This document shows positions 9,298 through 35,957 of a stretch of DNA of 64,000 nucleotides, in pieces. Made by a program: the position numbers and the translations under genes. Position 1 is the stretch's first letter, and every line of letters starts with the position of its first letter. This stretch comes from Pseudomonas brassicacearum. Lineage in GTDB: Bacteria; Pseudomonadota; Gammaproteobacteria; Pseudomonadales; Pseudomonadaceae. The DNA is taken from the NCBI RefSeq assembly GCF_003732225.1, contig NZ_MOBJ01000003.1:429167-493166 (forward strand). The letters are read 5' to 3'. Below the pieces are notes generated by a model. That model did not search any database. It was not told the origin of the DNA and worked only from the letters and a program-made list of their open reading frames with translations.

Positions 9298-9751
9298 GTT
9301 TCACGTCATCCTTTTTCAACCAGAAATTCCGCCGAATACCGGCAACGTTATCAGGCTGTGCGCCAACAGTGGCTGCCACCTGCATTTGATCGAGCCGCTG
9401 GGTTTCGAGATGGACGACAAGCGCCTGCGCCGGGCGGGCCTCGACTATCATGAGTATGCCACCCTGCAGCGCCATGCAGACCTTGCCAGCTGTCTGGAAA
9501 GCCTTGGCCATCCACGCTTGTTCGCCTTCACCACCAAGGGCTCGCGGCCGTTCCACGACGCCAGCTTCGCTGAGGGTGATGCCTTCCTGTTCGGCCCGGA
9601 AAGCCGTGGCCTGCCCGCCGAGGTGCTGGACGCACTGCCTGCCGAACAACGACTGCGCCTGCCGATGCGCGAAGGCTGCCGCAGCCTGAACCTGTCCAAC
9701 ACCGTGGCGGTGGCCGTGTACGAAGGCTGGCGCCAGCTCGGCTTTAAATAA
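9296..9751 (+). CDS. trmL: tRNA (cytidine/uridine-34-2'-O)-methyltransferase TrmL
   Basis: TrmL methylates the ribose of the wobble nucleotide of tRNA-Leu isoacceptors using SAM. The 151-residue SPOUT protein shows all three motifs: PEIPPNTGNVIRLCAN, FGPESRGLP and LRLPMREGCRSLNLSNTVAV, which form the trefoil-knot SAM site. GGAG lies 7 bases before the ATG; the same frame is open far upstream but through the sRNA locus. It is divergent from the neighbouring membrane protein with overlapping start codons. Confidence 0.95.
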   Translation: MFHVILFQPEIPPNTGNVIRLCANSGCHLHLIEPLGFEMDDKRLRRAGLDYHEYATLQRHADLASCLESLGHPRLFAFTTKGSRPFHDASFAEGDAFLFGPESRGLPAEVLDALPAEQRLRLPMREGCRSLNLSNTVAVAVYEGWRQLGFK

Positions 9752-9763
9752 CACCCTCGATCT

Positions 9764-9909
9764 GTAGCAGCTGCCGAGCCCGCGAGGCTGCGTTCGAGGA
9801 CGCAGTCCTCGCAATTCCTGAGTGCGGGGCACACCTGAAAGATCGCGCACGCTGGCCTCTACGACGGCTACGCCGCCGAACGCAGCCTCGCGAGCTCGGC
9901 AGCTGCTAC
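9764..9909. repeat. REP doublet (GTAGCAGCTGCCGAGC type)
   Basis: The arms GTAGCAGCTGCCGAGC and GCTCGGCAGCTGCTAC with GAGGCTGCGTTCG/CGAACGCAGCCTC extensions lie about 80 bp apart. This is a third REP sequence class in the window. It fills the space between the convergent trmL and secB genes. Confidence 0.8.
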
Positions 9910-28445: not shown

Positions 28446-29509
28446 AAGCCGAGCAATTTTCAACCGCGGTGCTGGATTGGTACGACCGCCACGGACGCCA
28501 CGACCTGCCTTGGCAACAGGGCATCACCCCGTATCGGGTGTGGGTCTCGGAAATCATGTTGCAGCAGACCCAGGTCAGCACCGTGCTGAACTACTTCGAC
28601 CGGTTCATGGCCTCGTTGCCAACGGTCGAAGCCCTGGCTGCGGCGCCGGAAGATGAAGTGCTGCACCTGTGGACCGGGCTGGGTTACTACACCCGCGCGC
28701 GCAATCTGCAAAAGACCGCGAAGATTGTCGTCGCCGAGTACGGCGGCGAGTTTCCACGGGATGTGGAAAAGCTCACCGACTTGCCAGGCATCGGCCTGTC
28801 CACCGCGGGCGCGATTGCCAGCCTCAGCATGGGCCTGCGCGCGCCGATCCTCGATGGCAACGTCAAACGGGTACTGGCACGCTTCACAGCGCAAGAGGGC
28901 TACCCCGGCGAACCCAAAGTTGCCAAACAGCTGTGGGCCAACGCTGAGCGCTTCACGCCTTACGATCGGGTCAACGCCTACACCCAGGCGATGATGGACC
29001 TGGGCGCTACGCTCTGCACCCGCAGCAAGCCGAGTTGCCTGCTGTGTCCGCTGGAAAAGGGCTGCGAAGCGCACATGCTCGGTCTGGAGACGCGCTACCC
29101 GATCCCCAAACCGCGCAAAACCGTGCCACAGAAGCGTACGTTGATGCCGCTGCTCGCCAACCGCGACGGCGCCATTCTGCTTTACCGCCGGCCTTCCACG
29201 GGCTTGTGGGGCGGTTTGTGGAGCCTGCCGGAACTCGATGACCTTGGCGACCTGGAACATCTGGCACTGCAACACTCGCTGGAGCTGGGCAAGCACATTG
29301 AGCTGCCGAGCCTGGTGCACACCTTCAGCCATTTCCAACTGGCTATCGAACCCTGGTTGGTTCAGGTCCAGGAGGCTGGCCATCACGTGGCCGAGGCCGA
29401 CTGGCTCTGGTATAACCTCGCCACCCCGCCGCGCCTGGGCCTTGCCGCCCCGGTGAAAAAACTGCTGAAGCGCGCGGCCGACGTATTGAACGCAGGAGAG
29501 TCGTCATGA
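28442..29509 (+). CDS. mutY: Adenine DNA glycosylase MutY
   Basis: Removes adenine mispaired with 8-oxoguanine. The 355-residue protein has the helix-hairpin-helix region ([18 protein letters not shown], with the catalytic Asp following in [10 protein letters not shown]), the [4Fe-4S] cluster motif [17 protein letters not shown] and a C-terminal NUDIX-like 8-oxoG recognition domain. It overlaps both neighbours by four bases, so asmA, mutY and yggX form one coupled unit. Confidence 0.97.
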
Positions 29510-29778
29510 CCCGCACCATCATGTGCCGCAAGTACAAAGAACAATTGCCAGGCCTGGAGCGCGCTCCATTCCCGGGCGCCAAAGGTCAGGACATTTTTGA
29601 CCACGTCTCGGCCAAGGCCTGGGCCGACTGGCAAAAACACCAGACCCTGCTGATCAACGAAAAACGCCTGAACATGATGAACGCCGAAGACCGCAAATAT
29701 CTTCAGGGCGAGATGGACAAGTACTTCTCCGGCGAGGAATACGCCAAGGCCGAAGGCTACGTTCCGCCTGCCGAGTAA
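29506..29778 (+). CDS. yggX: Fe(II)-trafficking / oxidative damage protection protein YggX
   Basis: A 90-residue protein matching Ygg[25 protein letters not shown] at the start with the conserved cysteine, and [19 protein letters not shown] at the end. It protects Fe-S proteins, which suits its coupling to the Fe-S enzyme MutY. Confidence 0.96.
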
Positions 29779-29881: not shown

Positions 29882-29957
29882 GCCCAGATAGCTCAGTCGG
29901 TAGAGCAGGGGATTGAAAATCCCCGTGTCGGCGGTTCGATTCCGTCTCTGGGCACCA
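29882..29957 (+). tRNA. tRNA-Phe (GAA)
   Basis: A complete 76-nt cloverleaf: GCCCAGA acceptor arm, D arm GCTCAGTCGGTAGAGC, anticodon GAA (29915-29917), GTTCGATTC T loop and encoded CCA. It is followed by a strong terminator. Its last bases and terminator are duplicated 2,503 bp away. Confidence 0.97.
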
Positions 29958-30010
29958 AATACCGAAAACCCTGAATCGCAAGATTCAGGGTTTTTTTATG
30001 CCTGCGATTT
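29944..30010. repeat. Direct repeat, left copy (tRNA-Phe attachment-like site)
   Basis: 67 bp from the tRNA-Phe 3' end through its terminator, matching 32447-32513 at 64 of 67 positions by eye alignment. tRNA 3' ends are common integration sites, and such a duplication is the usual trace of a past insertion. The right copy carries only the tRNA end, so the left is the functional tRNA. Confidence 0.88.
29965..29997 (+). terminator. Terminator of tRNA-Phe
   Basis: AAAACCCTGAATC and GATTCAGGGTTTT pair around GCAA, followed by further T. The same hairpin is repeated at 32468-32500. Confidence 0.92.
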
Positions 30011-30219
30011 GGCGAGGAACTATTCCCGTCACCATCGAGGTGCCTTTCCCCCCTCTCGCTACGCCAGCAAGCGCCTGGTAATCAGATGTCCCTGGCGCCT
30101 GACAGAACCGTCCGCATGCTTTAGCGGAAATGGATGACATACGCTAATTATTTCATTGGGCAGAATTGGAAGACGAGCTACCGCATCACCGGGAGCAGAT
30201 ACACAACAGGATGTAGACA
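30011..30219. other. Gene-free stretch inside the tRNA-Phe element
   Basis: About 210 bp with no convincing gene, possibly holding the promoter of the oxygenase gene and decayed sequence. A weak AGGAT ribosome site lies just before 30220. Confidence 0.4.
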
Positions 30220-31299
30220 ATGGCGGACGCCGTTAAACAAGACATCGAAGCCGCCGAGCTTTTTACTGAACAAGAAGTCAGAACCTTCCGCTTTGATGCT
30301 CGACAGTCAACATTGCTTCACACGTTCACCGAAGAACTGGCCGCCATCGGCGGGCCGCAGGCACCAGGAGCCAAGTCCAGGGCCTCTCTGGCAGCCGCCG
30401 AATTGAAGTTCTCGTTTTCGAAAGACCAATGCGAACTGCTGGGTGCCTACTCCAATGGCCTTGTTTCCCTGTTGATCTTTGAAGGGCTGCAAAAAATCAC
30501 CGATATCAGCCCTCCCAATGAACTACCAGACCTGACATCCCTGGAAAATCGATACGAAGTCCTTTGCCTGGCCGCCCGAAATCAGATCTTGTTGGAACTG
30601 GTAGATAACAATGCCTTTGCCTATGACATGGACAACGAAGGAAAACTGGTTCGATTGGTGACCAACTTCAAGGGTGGCGGACTTACCAAAATCAATGCCG
30701 AGCCGCCAGTCAAAGAACTGAGCTCCCATTCCGGCCTCGCGCTCGGCCCGCATACCGAGGCGCCTTACTGGTGCGCAGTGAACGCGAAAGACGGGCACTC
30801 GCCCTCCCCTTCGTCGCTCATACTTTCCGCCCTGTGGAACCCGAGCCTGGAACCCACACGGGTCATTCCACTGCCTCCCATACTCGAAAAAATTGGCGTC
30901 ACCAACTGCCTCGCACTGACCACGGGCAACTTCCAGTTCACTCGTAGTGACTCCTTTGTCAGTGGCAAAGGTGAAGATGGCCGCAACGTTTCGATTCTGG
31001 AATTCGACGACAAGGTCGGGTTCGCAGCCCGCTTCAATTCGTATCGTTTTTCGGTCAATGACAACACCTCGACCTTTGTCAAAACGGCTTACGCCGCCCT
31101 TTGCCAAGGTGTGGGCAAAGCAACTCCGGCTGAATACACGCTGACCCAGGAGTCGGCCATGGCCATCAATAACATCCGAGCTCTGCACTGTCGCGATGTC
31201 ATCAAAGACAACAGACGGGTTTTGGTTCGTCTTTTCGGACTTTCAAAATTTTCTTCCCCCATCGTTATTTCAGAGGACCCGTTACTGCTGCGGGGCTGA
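30220..31299 (+). CDS. Clavaminate synthase-like Fe(II)/2-oxoglutarate oxygenase
   Basis: A 359-residue protein with the features of the TauD/clavaminate synthase-like superfamily: the HxE metal pair H178/E180 in GPHTEAPYW and the distal motif NNIRALHCRDVIKDNRRVLVRLFG, giving the third metal ligand H323 and a likely 2-oxoglutarate-binding arginine R337. Such enzymes hydroxylate or desaturate amino acids or related small molecules; the substrate is unknown. It is followed by a TSUP transporter and is bracketed by tRNA-Phe direct repeats, so it is probably acquired cargo. Assignment to the superfamily is fairly firm. Confidence 0.72.
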   Translation: MADAVKQDIEAAELFTEQEVRTFRFDARQSTLLHTFTEELAAIGGPQAPGAKSRASLAAAELKFSFSKDQCELLGAYSNGLVSLLIFEGLQKITDISPPNELPDLTSLENRYEVLCLAARNQILLELVDNNAFAYDMDNEGKLVRLVTNFKGGGLTKINAEPPVKELSSHSGLALGPHTEAPYWCAVNAKDGHSPSPSSLILSALWNPSLEPTRVIPLPPILEKIGVTNCLALTTGNFQFTRSDSFVSGKGEDGRNVSILEFDDKVGFAARFNSYRFSVNDNTSTFVKTAYAALCQGVGKATPAEYTLTQESAMAINNIRALHCRDVIKDNRRVLVRLFGLSKFSSPIVISEDPLLLRG

Positions 31300-31372
31300 T
31301 TCTTCAAGTGTTCAGGCTGATGAACGACCCGTCATGTGATGACTGGGCAATATCTATAAAAGAGAGAATGTA

Positions 31373-32164
31373 ATGTCTTGGGATGTCATTGGCATGTTGG
31401 CGCTCGTCGCTTTTTGCGCCGGTTTTTTTGATGCGATTGCCGGTGGCGGCGGTTTGATCACCTTGCCTGCATTGTTTCTGGCCGGTGTAGATCCGATCAG
31501 CGCCATTGCAACGAACAAGTTCCAGGCCGCTTCGGCAACTATTTCAGCAACCGTAACTTTTGCTCGCAAGGGCATGATCGAGTGGCGCGAAGGCCGCTTC
31601 CTGGTTGTCTGCGGATTTATTGGCGGTGCCAGTGGTGCCTTGCTGGTCAGTTCTATTGATAAGCACTATCTGGAAGTATGTGTGCCCATCATGCTGATTC
31701 TGGTGGCCGTCTATTTTGCCTTCTCTCCCAAACTGGCCAATGAAGACCGGCGCAAGAGAATCGGCATTCTGCTTTTCTCGTTTACCGTAGCGCCGATCCT
31801 GGGCTTTTACGACGGCATATTCGGCCCCGGCGTAGGTTCATTCTTTATTGTCGGGTTTGTCCTTCTCTGCGGCCTGGGCATGATGCGGGCCATGAGTTTC
31901 ACCAAACTTGCCAATGCCTCATGCAACCTGGGTTCGCTGTCGGTTTTTATCACCAAAGGGGTAATTATCTGGCCGATTGCCATAGCCATGGCTTTGGCGG
32001 CCTTCATCGGTGCGCAGCTTGGCGCACGGGCCGCAGTGCGAGTCGGTCCACGGTTGATAAAACCTATGTTGATCGTGGTGTGCTGCGCGTTAGCCATCAA
32101 GCTTCTGAGCGTGGAAAGTAACCCTTTGCGTGTTGCCGTCATTCACTCATTGGCTTCGCTATGA
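31373..32164 (+). CDS. TSUP/TauE-SafE family transporter
   Basis: A 263-residue inner-membrane protein with about 8 hydrophobic segments and the twin family motifs: GFFDAIAGGGGLITLPALFLAGVDP in the first half and YDGIFGPGVGSFFIVGFV in the second. TSUP members usually export or import small organic anions or sulfur compounds. Pairing with the upstream oxygenase suggests export or uptake of its product or substrate; this is inference. Confidence 0.85.
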   Translation: MSWDVIGMLALVAFCAGFFDAIAGGGGLITLPALFLAGVDPISAIATNKFQAASATISATVTFARKGMIEWREGRFLVVCGFIGGASGALLVSSIDKHYLEVCVPIMLILVAVYFAFSPKLANEDRRKRIGILLFSFTVAPILGFYDGIFGPGVGSFFIVGFVLLCGLGMMRAMSFTKLANASCNLGSLSVFITKGVIIWPIAIAMALAAFIGAQLGARAAVRVGPRLIKPMLIVVCCALAIKLLSVESNPLRVAVIHSLASL

Positions 32165-32217
32165 TCAATCTGTCGGCGTTGACCGGCGAATCTTGACTTC
32201 AGTCGCGACTGCAGCAG

Positions 32218-32415
32218 TTCGATGAGACGTCGATTGGCCCTGCACATTACTTTTCAGAAACCTTCGAGGGTTATCAACTTGAAGGTCGCGGTCTGTCGAT
32301 CACCGCAAGCAAGCCAACGCCCCCCACAGGTACTGGCCATTCATGGCGCTCGCTCAGAACCCCATAACTTTCTCGACTCGTCATCGCTGGCCTTTCTGCG
32401 CAAGTTTAAAGCCGC
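32218..32415 (+). pseudogene. Frameshifted alpha/beta-hydrolase fragment
   Basis: In one frame 32218-32350 reads FDETSIGPAHYFSETFEGY..., and near 32320-32340 the similarity moves to a second frame giving QVLAIHGARSEPHNF, which looks like the first strands and oxyanion loop (xHGxR) of an alpha/beta hydrolase. It then stops well short of a nucleophile elbow. I read it as a decayed remnant at the right end of the tRNA-Phe element. Confidence 0.4.
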
Positions 32416-32446
32416 ATCCCGCCGGAGTCAGGATAGTGCGGCGCGA

Positions 32447-32513
32447 GTCTCTGGGAACCCAATACCGAAAACCCTGAATCGCAAGATTCAGGGTTTTTTT
32501 ATGCCCGCGATTT
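32447..32513. repeat. Direct repeat, right copy (tRNA-Phe attachment-like site)
   Basis: Right boundary of the element: GTCTCTGGG and the downstream terminator of tRNA-Phe repeated, with mismatches at the tenth and fourteenth base and one near the end. The hairpin at 32468-32500 may now serve as terminator for the minus-strand gene at 32541. Confidence 0.88.
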
Positions 32514-32540
32514 GATGACGCCGCGCAAAAGCCGTCATCC

Positions 32541-32996
32541 CTAACTATTACTATTGCTCTTCCAGTGGAAGACCAGATTGCGTGCGGCACCTTTGCCGAC
32601 TTCAGCGGTATCACGCAGCACTTCACCATTACGCGTCGCGACTACGGTGTACTTGCCAGCGGGTAGCTGAACGTAAACCAGAGGACCCGCCTGGGTCAGG
32701 GTCAGCACGGTTTGCCCCTGGGCTTTCTGAATGACCACATCTACGTCGGGAACATATTTATTCTCCGTCCCGGTGGAGAAGGTCATGTGCAGGTTGTAGC
32801 CCTTGGTTTGCTGAATGGCCTTTGACTCATCCTCGCCGATACCGCCAGACAGGTAGTTGATCCCGTTTTGCTGTTGCTCCTGGACTTGTACGGCTGAACT
32901 GTCGATCGGCTCAGCGCTGGCGGCCCGCGACATGGCTGGAAACACCAGTAAGCCGACAGCGGCGAGGGGCAGTATGAATGAATGGACGTACCTCAT
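32541..32996 (-). CDS. Secreted carboxypeptidase-regulatory-like (beta-sandwich) protein
   Basis: A 151-residue protein with a signal peptide (ILPLAAVGLLVFPAMSRAASA) and a small domain ending GPLVYVQLPAGKYTVVATRNGEVLRDTAEVGKGAARNLVFHW, which has the pattern of carboxypeptidase-regulatory or DUF-type beta sandwiches. No catalytic residues. Likely periplasmic; function unknown. Confidence 0.65.
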   Translation of the reverse strand: MRYVHSFILPLAAVGLLVFPAMSRAASAEPIDSSAVQVQEQQQNGINYLSGGIGEDESKAIQQTKGYNLHMTFSTGTENKYVPDVDVVIQKAQGQTVLTLTQAGPLVYVQLPAGKYTVVATRNGEVLRDTAEVGKGAARNLVFHWKSNSNS

Positions 32997-33247
32997 GATG
33001 ACGACTCCCGGGTTCCACAGAACCCTATCCGTTACACCATTTTTGATTGCTGACCGAGGATCAGGGTTTTAGATCGATTCGGACTTGAGTCCAGTACGAA
33101 ACGGACCAAGCATTCAGTACACCCGAATCAGATCCTCCGGTACGTGACGCACTGCTTCGCGTCACGCGCGACTACGGGCTCCAAACCGTTGCACAACGCC
33201 AGCGTTGAAGTTCATTCTTGGGCTCGCCATCGCCAGGGCTCAGACCC

Positions 33248-34213
33248 ATGCATCTACAAAGCGTACCCTCCACATTCAGGCCAGAATCGCCAGCCACACA
33301 AACGCAAAGCGTGCCCTTCAAGGAACCTGCCGCCGACGGCTTTATCCTTGGCGGCTTCACCTGGCGACACGCCCTCGCGGACGCGATGCGACCGGTAGTC
33401 ATCATCAACGCCGCCACCTCAGTCCGCTGCCGACACTACTCGCGCTTCGCCGATTACCTGTTCGCCAATGGCTTCGACGTCATCACCTATGACTACCGCG
33501 GCATCGGCGAGTCTCGGCCAACATCGCCCAAAGGGTTTCAGGCTTCATGGTCCGACTGGGGCGTGCTGGATTTCGAAGCCATACTCAAACGCGCTCAGCG
33601 GGAGTTTCCCGGCCAACCCATTGACGTGGTCGGCCACAGCTTCGGCGGCTGTGCGGCGGGGTTGGGCGCTTCAGGGCACGTGATCCGGCGCCTGGTGACC
33701 GTCGGCGCGCAGTTCGCCTACTGGCGCGACTATGCGCCTGCCCATCGCTGGCGGATGTTCGGCAAGTGGCACCTGCTGATGCCGTTGATGACGCTGGTGT
33801 GCGGCTACTTCCCCGGCAAACGCCTCGGCTGGCTGGAAGACACGCCCGCCGGTGTGGTTCGCGACTGGAGCACGCCCACCGCCCGCTATGAGAAACGTCC
33901 CAGCGGTCGCGCCATCCACGCCAGAAACGGCCGTCTGCCCTTTGCCAGCGTCACCGCACAAACCCTGGCTATCAGCCTCAGCGATGATCCCTACGGCACA
34001 ATTGCAGCCATCGAACGCCTGCTCGGCTACTTCACCGGCAGTACAAACACCCACCTACGAATCACCCCGCAAGACATCGGCGAAGAAGAAGTCGGACATT
34101 TCGCCTTTTTTCGCAGCCCATACCAAGCCACACTATGGCCCATTGCATTGTCATGGCTGCAAAACGGCGAGCTGACACCCGACACCCCCGGGCGGCGAGT
34201 GCCACGCAGCTGA
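33248..34213 (+). CDS. Alpha/beta-fold hydrolase
   Basis: A 321-residue hydrolase: GNAATSVR-like start of the fold (VVIINAATSVRCRHYSRFADYLFANGFDVITYDYRGIGES), the nucleophile elbow GHSFGG and a late histidine in EEEVGHFAFF; the acid is probably the Asp in ISLSDDPYG. Similar proteins are common, uncharacterised esterases or acyltransferases. The start is uncertain: 33248 has only a weak CAGGGC upstream; an in-frame alternative is at 33218. The C-terminal arm is rich in Arg and Pro. Confidence 0.75.
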   Translation: MHLQSVPSTFRPESPATQTQSVPFKEPAADGFILGGFTWRHALADAMRPVVIINAATSVRCRHYSRFADYLFANGFDVITYDYRGIGESRPTSPKGFQASWSDWGVLDFEAILKRAQREFPGQPIDVVGHSFGGCAAGLGASGHVIRRLVTVGAQFAYWRDYAPAHRWRMFGKWHLLMPLMTLVCGYFPGKRLGWLEDTPAGVVRDWSTPTARYEKRPSGRAIHARNGRLPFASVTAQTLAISLSDDPYGTIAAIERLLGYFTGSTNTHLRITPQDIGEEEVGHFAFFRSPYQATLWPIALSWLQNGELTPDTPGRRVPRS

Positions 34214-34250: not shown

Positions 34251-34667
34251 ATGGCATCCGCGAACAAACAGCACAAACGCGCTACCCGCGCCAAAGCGAA
34301 AGCCAAGCAGAACCGCACTCAACGGGCCGCCGCGCCGGTCGAGCTGGACCCGAACGACGATCGCATCGACTTCGAATCGGTGGACCTGACCGAACTGTTC
34401 AAAAAAATGATCGACGCCGAAAAGACCAGTCAGCAAGCGATGTGCACGGCCTTCCTGGAAGACCCGCTGTTGGAGCTGGTGTACGAACAGGAAGGCGAAG
34501 AAGGCGCGATGGACTTCATCCTCGCCGCGCTGATCGAGTATCGCCAATGGTCCACCGAGGCGGACGAAGCTGGCGCCCTGGCGTGGATCGAATCGTCAGC
34601 CTTCCAGGCTGACTACGTGGCGGCGTCCGACGCCATCGCAGCCCAAACCCAACAGAAACCGAACTGA
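34251..34667 (+). CDS. Hypothetical protein with Lys/Arg-rich N-terminus
   Basis: A 138-residue protein, MASANKQHKRATRAKAKAKQNRTQ at the start and an acidic helical remainder. The basic start could bind nucleic acid or be a weak targeting stretch. It is a tandem paralog of the next gene, 6 bp away. Such pairs occur in other pseudomonads; function unknown. Confidence 0.7.
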   Translation: MASANKQHKRATRAKAKAKQNRTQRAAAPVELDPNDDRIDFESVDLTELFKKMIDAEKTSQQAMCTAFLEDPLLELVYEQEGEEGAMDFILAALIEYRQWSTEADEAGALAWIESSAFQADYVAASDAIAAQTQQKPN

Positions 34668-34673
34668 GTTCCC

Positions 34674-35126
34674 ATGGCATCCCTGAACAAGCAACAGAAA
34701 CGCGCCAAACGCGCCAAGATCAAAGCCAGGCAAATCAATATTCACGGCAGAAAACCCGCCGCACTGGACGATGACCTGGGCGAAATCGGCGAGCCGATCC
34801 CGGAATACACCCTGGCGATGTTCAGCAAAATGCGTGATGCGCAGGCCATCAGCCGCAACGACATGCTGCTGACCCTGCTGTCCAACCTCAGCGAGATCAT
34901 CAACGATCATCCAGAGCTGCTGGACATGGAAAACGCCGAGAACGAAGCCATGGCCGCCACTCACCTGGCTGCCGACATGCTGATTGACTACCGCATGTGG
35001 ACCGACGGCGTAGACCGTGAGACCGCGCAACTCTGGCTCACCGAGCCGCAGTTCATCACCGACTTCGGGATTGCGCTGGACAGCTATCGCGAGTCGCTGG
35101 AAGTGCCTGAGGCAAAAGCCGAATAA
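34674..35126 (+). CDS. Hypothetical protein, paralog of the preceding gene
   Basis: A 150-residue protein starting MASLNKQQKRAKRAKIKARQ, then acidic helices with LIDYRMWTDGVDRETAQLWLTEPQF matching LIEYRQWSTEADEAGALAWIESSAF in its neighbour. The pair is probably cotranscribed and ends at the terminator at 35153. Confidence 0.7.
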   Translation: MASLNKQQKRAKRAKIKARQINIHGRKPAALDDDLGEIGEPIPEYTLAMFSKMRDAQAISRNDMLLTLLSNLSEIINDHPELLDMENAENEAMAATHLAADMLIDYRMWTDGVDRETAQLWLTEPQFITDFGIALDSYRESLEVPEAKAE

Positions 35127-35319: not shown

Positions 35320-35550
35320 ATGGAACAGACCACCCTTTTCATGAGCAATCGCAGCCAGGCCGTCCGCTTGCCCAAAGCAGTGGCAATGCCTGAAGACGTG
35401 AAACGCGTCAATGTTGTAGCCATTGGTCGCGCTCGTATCATCACTCCGGCAGATGAAGCCTGGGATAGCTGGTTCGATGGCGATAACGTCACTGCCGATT
35501 TTATGGCCGACCGTGAGCAACCGGCCGATCAGGAGCGCGAGTCGTTCTGA
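35320..35550 (+). CDS. vapB: Antitoxin VapB
   Basis: A 76-residue AbrB/SpoVT-type antitoxin: MEQTTLFMSNRSQAVRLPKAVAMP is the swapped-hairpin DNA-binding part, and the acidic C-terminus (DEAWDSWFDG) should wrap VapC. Its stop overlaps the vapC start by one base (TGATG), the standard coupled arrangement. Confidence 0.9.
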   Translation: MEQTTLFMSNRSQAVRLPKAVAMPEDVKRVNVVAIGRARIITPADEAWDSWFDGDNVTADFMADREQPADQERESF

Positions 35551-35957
35551 TGATCAAATACATGCTCGATACCAACATTTGCATTTTTACCATCAAGAAC
35601 AAACCACAGGTCGTGCGCGACGCTTTCAATCGCCATCACGGCCAGCTGTGTATCAGCGCAGTCACGTTGATGGAATTGATTTACGGTGCTGAAAAATCTG
35701 CGGCACCGGAAAAGAACCTGGCCGTGATCGAAGGTTTTGCAGCTCGTCTTGAGGTCTTGCCCTTCGATTACGAAGCGGCTGCCCACACCGGAATGATTCG
35801 CTCGGAACTTGCAAAAGCCGGCACACCGATAGGCCCTTACGACCACATGATTGCGGGTCACGCGCGCTCACAAGGGTTCATTGTGGTGACAAATAATCTT
35901 CGGGAATTCGAGCGTGTTCCTGGGTTACGCGTAGAGGATTGGGTACACCTCGATTGA
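35550..35957 (+). CDS. vapC: Ribonuclease toxin VapC (PIN domain)
   Basis: A 135-residue PIN-domain endoribonuclease. The acidic site is visible as D7 (MLDTNIC), E42 (LMELIYG) and D98 (GPYDHMIAG), with VVTNNLREFERV as the last motif; Asn stands at the fourth acidic position, as in several VapC proteins. VapC toxins cleave specific tRNAs or rRNA. It is followed at once by the duplicated 45-bp terminator. Confidence 0.92.
   Translation: MIKYMLDTNICIFTIKNKPQVVRDAFNRHHGQLCISAVTLMELIYGAEKSAAPEKNLAVIEGFAARLEVLPFDYEAAAHTGMIRSELAKAGTPIGPYDHMIAGHARSQGFIVVTNNLREFERVPGLRVEDWVHLD

Follow-up and report, generated by a model that had tools for sequence, protein, structure and literature searches.

How does a 2.5-kb interval come to be bounded by two nearly identical copies of the end of a tRNA gene when no integrase lies between them? 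The question is raised by the tRNA-Phe locus of a Pseudomonas brassicacearum genome of 5.98 Mb, within a 64,000-nucleotide stretch of contig NZ_MOBJ01000003.1 (hereafter the window). A first-pass annotation had read the interval as the trace of a site-specific integration whose integrase is gone and whose cargo is an oxygenase, a TSUP transporter and a decayed hydrolase (together, the cassette). Of the readings that we weighed this is the best supported, for an insertion that looks old and with an integrase step that we infer from other elements at the same site: the interval is probably what is left of an element that entered the 3' half of tRNA-Phe by site-specific integration.

The repeat and its filled and empty sites

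ARAGORN finds a single tRNA-Phe in the window, and the left copy of the repeat is its 3' end together with the terminator that follows. The two copies (Table 1) agree at 65 of 68 positions with a spacing of 2503 bp, which bears out the near-identity reported earlier (then counted as 64 of 67). The three differences are C/A at tRNA nucleotide (nt) 72, A/C at nt 76, and one in the flank of the terminator; two of the three thus lie in the tRNA part (14 nt) and one in the remaining 54 nt. As had been claimed, the right copy lacks the 5' part of the tRNA, retaining just its last 14 nucleotides (63-76) plus the terminator: an Islander-type 3' fragment of the tRNA gene, downstream of the intact gene and in the same orientation. 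Elsewhere in the window the left copy has no better ungapped match than 36 of 68 (+ strand) or 34 of 68 (- strand), which puts the observed identity far above chance.

The locus is framed on the left by mutY and yggX and on the right by a conserved, convergent gene (the flank gene). We compared 65 loci from relatives that hold tRNA-Phe plus a long match to the flank gene, identical rows having been removed (G and L numbers below denote genomes and loci). The loci were collected by cassette, tRNA and flank-gene queries and are not a random sample; stretches missing the tRNA or the long flank match were left out, for example G298, G419, L047 and L048, and also L066, L067, L077, L078 and L154, the last of which has a right copy by a separate look. 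Right copies were scored against shuffled controls, within the 1,200 bp that precede the flank gene.

Fourteen of the 65 loci are tight empty sites (for example L038/G058), in which tRNA-Phe, one terminator and the flank gene stand together: the flank-gene match starts 12-58 bp past the point 60 bp after the tRNA, which is space for one terminator. The first-pass annotation had expected cargo-free relatives to have a single copy, and none of the 14 has two, five of the gaps being too short to score. The cassette, or a piece of it, is present at 37 loci, 15 with a right copy (the window included) and 22 without a detectable one; L123 is a near-duplicate of L054, without which 15 of 37 becomes 14 of 36. 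These 15 right copies end 12-67 bp from the flank-gene match, approximately where the single terminator of the empty sites stands. Among cassette-free loci without a matched integrase, 3 of 27 have a second copy (L093, L177, L194), and these hold other inserts, of 1.26 kb (L093/L176), 4.4 kb (L177) and 4.3 kb (L194); the sole integrase-matched non-cassette locus of the 65 (L049) also has one. Every second copy among the 65 loci flanks an insert, and two copies without an insert were never found.

Nor is the cargo fixed throughout the genus, the other outcome that had been named as damaging. At a threshold of at least 75% identity over at least 230 residues, the oxygenase occurs in 27 of 398 genus genomes (that of the window included; the count also includes G419, where it is truncated, and G016, where it is in two pieces of 76 and 68%), and 25 of the 27 carry it at this tRNA-Phe. 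The nearest named relative of the window is Pseudomonas sp. H3(2019) (L051; mutY 99%, oxygenase 96%); among the names of further carriers are P. fluorescens, P. mandelii, P. jessenii and P. koreensis, so that the window probably belongs to the P. fluorescens group.

Most of the repeat consists of a palindromic terminator, GAAAACCCTGAATC-GCAA-GATTCAGGGTTTTTT, both copies of which fold (-20.6 kcal/mol on the + strand, -18.5 kcal/mol on the - strand), the right one between the cassette and the convergent flank gene. A simple terminator scan missed both copies (5 sites versus 4.8 expected), probably due to A-T pairs that lengthen the stem into the T run. The right copies of five loci (L057, L075, L083, L084, L087) keep the stem but no longer have any tRNA part, and in L083 and L084 a change in one arm of the stem is paired with one in the other. 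We suggest that selection keeps the right terminator, both copies being used; against this stand the 22 of 37 cassette loci without it.

How the insertion may have arisen

Unrelated elements at the same tRNA-Phe leave copies of defined extent. In G037, G008, G015, G273 and G298 the copy runs from nt 31/32 to 76, and two of these five (G037, G008) have an integrase beside the tRNA; a second type, in G419, G247 and G123, leaves nt 52/53-76. A tyrosine integrase directly follows the tRNA in G037, G008 and G002, and the integrases beside the tRNA in G419 and G247 are 71-72% identical to that of G002. No integrase was matched in G273 (L176), G015 (L050) or G123 (L177), and the right ends of L170, L176, L177, L188 and L189, examined for possible integrase remnants, yielded no noteworthy Pfam match. 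Genus-wide, the 45-nt core has a second match with at most one mismatch in 24 of 398 genomes, whether at this site or elsewhere. By locus, the two core types are nt 52/53-76 in L177, L192 and L193 (with a G002-type integrase in L192 and L193) and nt 31/32-76 in L047, L048, L176 and L150 (with integrases of another type in L047 and L048). The 4.9-kb insert of G015 (L050, 1501-6470), with its nt 32-76 right copy, encodes an AAA_21/DUF4435 ATPase and is possibly a defence island.

The right copies of the cassette itself hold about 41, 31, 14 or 0 nt of tRNA. The longest, in G046 (L044), is tRNA nt 36-76 plus terminator, abutting the remains of the hydrolase; those of L058 and L088 begin at about nt 46. 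Among the other elements, the terminator after the tRNA is non-native in G273, G002, G123 and G300, and in the first three the right copy carries the native one, which sets the direction: the left 3' half and its terminator are element-borne and the right copy is the displaced native end.

We propose the following course. A tyrosine-recombinase element, with a core extending approximately from the anticodon loop to the end of the tRNA, would have crossed over with tRNA-Phe; its incoming 3' half would have restored the tRNA on the left, bringing a terminator, while the displaced native 3' half and native terminator would have become the right copy before the convergent flank gene. Loss of the integrase, and of whatever transfer genes there were, would have followed, and the operon of oxygenase, TSUP transporter and hydrolase would have been inherited over the long term. 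Meanwhile decay would have affected the hydrolase and the tRNA portion of the right copy, and many lineages would have lost the cassette, some cleanly. The terminator halves may have stayed alike by use, the left one by tRNA-Phe and the right one in both directions, between cassette and flank gene. An integrase thus probably made this insertion, a single insertion likely underlies the loci with a right copy, and clean losses, rather than never having had the cassette, would explain the empty sites.

Several results weigh against this course. In none of the 37 cassette loci did tblastn, run with just three integrases, detect such a gene between the tRNA and the flank gene. The right copy is undetected in 22 of the 37, including the nearest relative L051, which has other sequence where the copy would be. 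A right copy is missing from all ten of the 37 loci whose hydrolase is (almost) full-length (L033, L043, L060, L063, L064, L070, L157, L158, L160, L162); conversely, the hydrolase is full-length in none of the 15 that have a right copy. An ancestor combining the two is therefore reconstructed rather than observed, and this counts most heavily on the opposing side. Of the 37 cassette loci, 34 have a native-like left terminator (46-54 of 54), whereas those of several other elements differ (9-22 of 54 in L049, L093, L177 and L196), so the element of the cassette had close-host sequence or was homogenised later; L194 and L036 also have a native-like left terminator (52 and 54) before an insert. 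The change at nt 72 is apparently common to the right copies of the window and of G046, where an adjacent deletion makes the alignment ambiguous. Across 595 pairs, divergence is faster in the cassette than in mutY-yggX (median ratio 1.78, rising to 5 in pairs that include L078; the branches of L079 and L168 are long as well), and some cassette copies have therefore probably been exchanged. Finally, the operon stands elsewhere in G018, G406 and L081, in fetched stretches without this tRNA; in L081 (10001-11936) the oxygenase-transporter pair (87% oxygenase) lies at a different point of the chromosome, in a 21-kb locus where no tRNA was found. Our confidence in integration is reduced because a full-length hydrolase and a right copy never occur together and because the nt-72 change is ambiguous.

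The alternative that survives best, which we hold to be unlikely, does without an integrase: the cassette would have entered 3' of the tRNA terminator by homologous or illegitimate recombination, duplicating the tRNA end and terminator, for example by unequal crossing-over or through a circle integrating via the terminator region. The native-like left terminators fit this course, as do the ten loci with (almost) full hydrolase, which sit 3' of the terminator with no second copy detected. That local duplications occur is seen in L062, where fragments of a second flank-gene copy and a terminator copy lie 5' of the oxygenase (9439-9856) and the terminator-flank-gene block has therefore been duplicated. 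What tells against it is the extent of the copies, the longest of which starts at nt 36, near the nt 31/32 of other elements (G037 and G008 with an integrase), since there is nothing to make a random duplication end at that point; nor does it sit well with the flanking of an insert by every second copy in the 65 loci.

We also considered an aberrant excision through a cryptic attachment (att) site in the hydrolase gene, which would explain native-like terminators on both sides. It was set aside because G046 has more tRNA and less hydrolase and the window the reverse, so that the simplest ancestor had both; against setting it aside, no locus with both has been seen, and it stays a candidate.

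Age, accretion and possible mobility of the cassette

Distances between oxygenase-transporter sequences correlate with those between mutY-yggX sequences across 35 loci (Mantel r 0.68, a value that 0 of 999 permutations reached), and for the window cassette and host distances nearly coincide (0.047 vs 0.045 with L051; 0.096 vs 0.097 with L044). We mapped presence of the cassette on a mutY-yggX tree of 73 rows (86 before 13 duplicates were dropped), of which 35 are intact, 7 remnant and 31 without it. The intact label requires at least 21 changes, against a shuffled mean of 24.6, and 41 of 500 shuffles were as low: presence is patchy and weakly clustered. Only pieces of the oxygenase are left at the locus in 5 of 398 genomes (G187, G268, G282, G279, G164; the tRNA of G279 lies outside the fetched stretch), mostly with the transporter retained. 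Because cassette and host distances correlate, presence is patchy and the right copy often goes undetected, the insertion looks old rather than fresh. A recent insertion, which we tried as an explanation, is disfavoured by the correlated divergence and the decay.

Other DNA has come to lie in front of the cassette. In G419 a 14.8-kb element with a P4-type integrase beside the tRNA separates tRNA-Phe from the left copy of the cassette, whose oxygenase is truncated. In G298 tRNA-Phe and the left copy are some 21.4 kb apart, and the DNA separating them has two integrase matches (at 6024740 and 6031679), neither of them immediately next to the tRNA; here the left copy is an exact nt 32-76 core followed by the terminator. 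L062, L083, L084 and L087 also hold other DNA before the cassette. The arrangement in G419 and G298, which is not that of the window, is tandem accretion.

This bears on a second alternative, that the insert is a still mobile passenger, a functional cis-mobilizable element (CIME) excised or carried by the integrases of its neighbours. The integrase-bearing DNA between tRNA-Phe and the left copy in G419 and G298 speaks for it, together with the patchy presence and the clean empty sites. We judge it improbable all the same: the right copy of the window keeps just 14 tRNA nucleotides, two of them substituted, 22 of the 37 loci have none detectable, the correlated divergence favours residence over frequent movement, and the G419 oxygenase is truncated. 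Least of all do we credit a recurring terminator or an assembly artefact, since, though intrinsic terminators can recur within a genome, the 65 of 68 matches include tRNA nt 63-76, the next best is 36, and second copies stand at the same place in 14 further of the 37 cassette rows (one a near-duplicate), from other assemblies.

Returning to integration into tRNA-Phe as the preferred explanation, we would add one rather doubtful extension, put forward tentatively. The tRNA-Phe of the P. fluorescens group may be a site of tandem accretion at which an att-flanked, integrase-less operon persists as a passenger, is repeatedly and cleanly lost by way of its repeats and is open to remobilisation by the integrases of unrelated elements that arrive in front of it (placed as in G419 and G298), with selection keeping the two-way terminator.

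Cargo, setting and known islands

Between the two copies in the window we found only the oxygenase, the transporter and the hydrolase remnant, and no integration or transfer genes (open reading frames and Pfam); tblastn with three integrases likewise found no integrase there. Cargo and missing integrase are accordingly as first described.

Table 1. Features of the tRNA-Phe locus, in window coordinates
Feature	Position	Strand	Basis or remark
yggX (oxidative damage protection / Fe2+ trafficking), conserved left flank	29506..29778	+	NCBIfam PRK05408, Pfam Iron_traffic; position kept in relatives
tRNA-Phe (gaa), target gene, presumably restored	29882..29957	+	ARAGORN
Left repeat copy: tRNA nt 63-76 + palindromic terminator (putative attL side)	29944..30011	+	
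Oxygenase, 359 aa, Fe(II)/2-oxoglutarate amino-acid-hydroxylase fold (VioC/OrfP/CmnC-like)	30220..31299	+	
TSUP (TauE/SafE) transporter, 263 aa	31373..32164	+	Pfam TauE E 2e-52
Decayed alpha/beta hydrolase, ATGA overlap with transporter stop	32161..32446	+	N-terminal piece by tblastn, short later piece by eye
Right repeat copy: tRNA nt 63-76 (two substitutions) + terminator (putative decayed attR, presumed native terminator)	32447..32514	+	
Right-flank gene, conserved, 151 aa, convergent	32541..32996	-	no Pfam family over cut-off; right flank in relatives

The window oxygenase itself has no Pfam match, TauD included; 25 of 32 homologues match TauD (PF02668) at E up to 1 (best 4.8e-8). Its AlphaFold2 model has a predicted template modelling score (pTM) of 0.81 and a mean per-residue confidence (pLDDT) of 73.9, falling below 50 at 150-173 and 182-195, around the first motif. 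A Foldseek search with the model gives OrfP as the best match (E 1.6e-15, TM about 0.6-0.7) and further matches to CmnC, NapI, VioC, KDO1, AsnO and clavaminate synthase, all at 16-20% identity, in agreement with the clavaminate-synthase-like (VioC/AsnO) group of Fe(II)/2-oxoglutarate enzymes. Against solved structures, an oxygenase profile gave weak matches to lysine 3-hydroxylase (0.012) and VioC (0.023), and phmmer with the single sequence only one meaningless match. H178, E180 and H323 are invariant across the 32 homologues; we take them to be the HxD/E...H iron triad, which would give them a role in metal binding. The cargo may hydroxylate an amino-acid-like small molecule and transport the substrate or product.

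In the hydrolase remnant, 54 N-terminal residues are 56% identical to an intact relative of 293 aa, with stops in the frames; that relative adjoins the transporter in L033 (4099-4980; Pfam Abhydrolase_6). Eleven more distant oxygenase homologues (45-60%) sit elsewhere, in Pseudomonas, Paracidovorax and Herbaspirillum, with the transporter following the oxygenase in 11 of 11 and a hydrolase matched in 5 (some loci being short). The pairing of oxygenase and transporter is therefore older than the island. An origin of the cargo from a plasmid or phage was rejected, because tblastn with the oxygenase at E 1e-5 found no match in 72,556 plasmid or 50,697 phage records.

Beyond the right copy, at whose terminator the flank gene would end to judge by position, lies an intact alpha/beta hydrolase (33218-34213). 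The G+C content of the insert is only mildly unusual (53.6% vs 58.1% for the window; 7.5% of same-size windows are equally low). Further right in the window, 34251-35126 encodes two neighbouring similar small proteins (138 and 150 aa) that start MAS.NKQ.KRA.RAK and have no Pfam family; a MAS.NKQ-like start is also found in an open reading frame of the L041 tRNA-Phe interval (1724-2203) and in the DNA separating transporter from flank gene in L052. At 35320-35954, a small MazE-like protein (Pfam match below cut-off) lies immediately 5' of a PIN-domain protein, by look a VapBC-type toxin-antitoxin pair. Large repeat proteins starting M(P/A)TLGEIRVN lie near tRNA-Phe or the flank gene in L062, L083, L084, L172 and L187; that of L062 has GGAGNDTL-like repeats, recalling RTX.

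Read alongside its relatives, the locus shows with unusual clarity how wear may proceed in a tRNA island. We suggest that long terminator repeats may outlast the integrase because each copy is needed as a terminator; repeats kept as terminators matter for tools that call or date islands by direct repeats. The operon of an uncharacterised VioC-like oxygenase and a TSUP transporter, often with a hydrolase, merits biochemical attention.

We recognised no paper on this tRNA-Phe site in the P. fluorescens group, most subscription papers lying outside the search. PFGI-1 of P. fluorescens Pf-5, from the same species group by name, is likewise bounded by tRNA 3'-end repeats, of 49 bp including 45 bp of the tRNA end; it differs in its tRNA-Lys target, its 115 kb and its integrase, and the accessible part of the source has no mention of tRNA-Phe by the term Phe (PMC2647930). 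The GI-pheV islands of E. coli share the tRNA-Phe target and a tRNA 3' piece as imperfect attR, and in the available portion of that account a missing attR is linked to shorter, stabilised islands; unlike our interval they keep intP4, reside in another genus, carry other cargo and are larger (9.7-110 kb; PMC11537424). The tRNA islands found by Islander, so far as the available text describes them (PMC4383910), have the whole tRNA on one side and a displaced 3' fragment in the same orientation on the other. Their anticodon-arm core is found here in sister elements at this tRNA; a further mark, which we added ourselves, is an empty site with a single uninterrupted copy, seen in the 14 tight empty relatives. 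Islander islands require an integrase, whereas none was found in the window, where the right copy holds 14 nt of tRNA. Also close is the CIME, defined in the portion seen of PMC5704250 as an element whose integration and transfer genes have been lost, that keeps attL and attR and onto which others accrete. The window resembles it in having no such genes found and att-like ends on both sides, and its relatives G419 and G298 in the integrase-bearing DNA accreted before the cassette, a trait described for CIMEs without being required of them; the window differs in its decayed ends, and its mobility and its descent from an integrative and conjugative (ICE) or integrative and mobilizable (IME) element would be hypothetical. 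The interval is thus most likely a decayed, integrase-less, CIME-like remnant at a tRNA hot spot, of the ordinary genomic-island kind.

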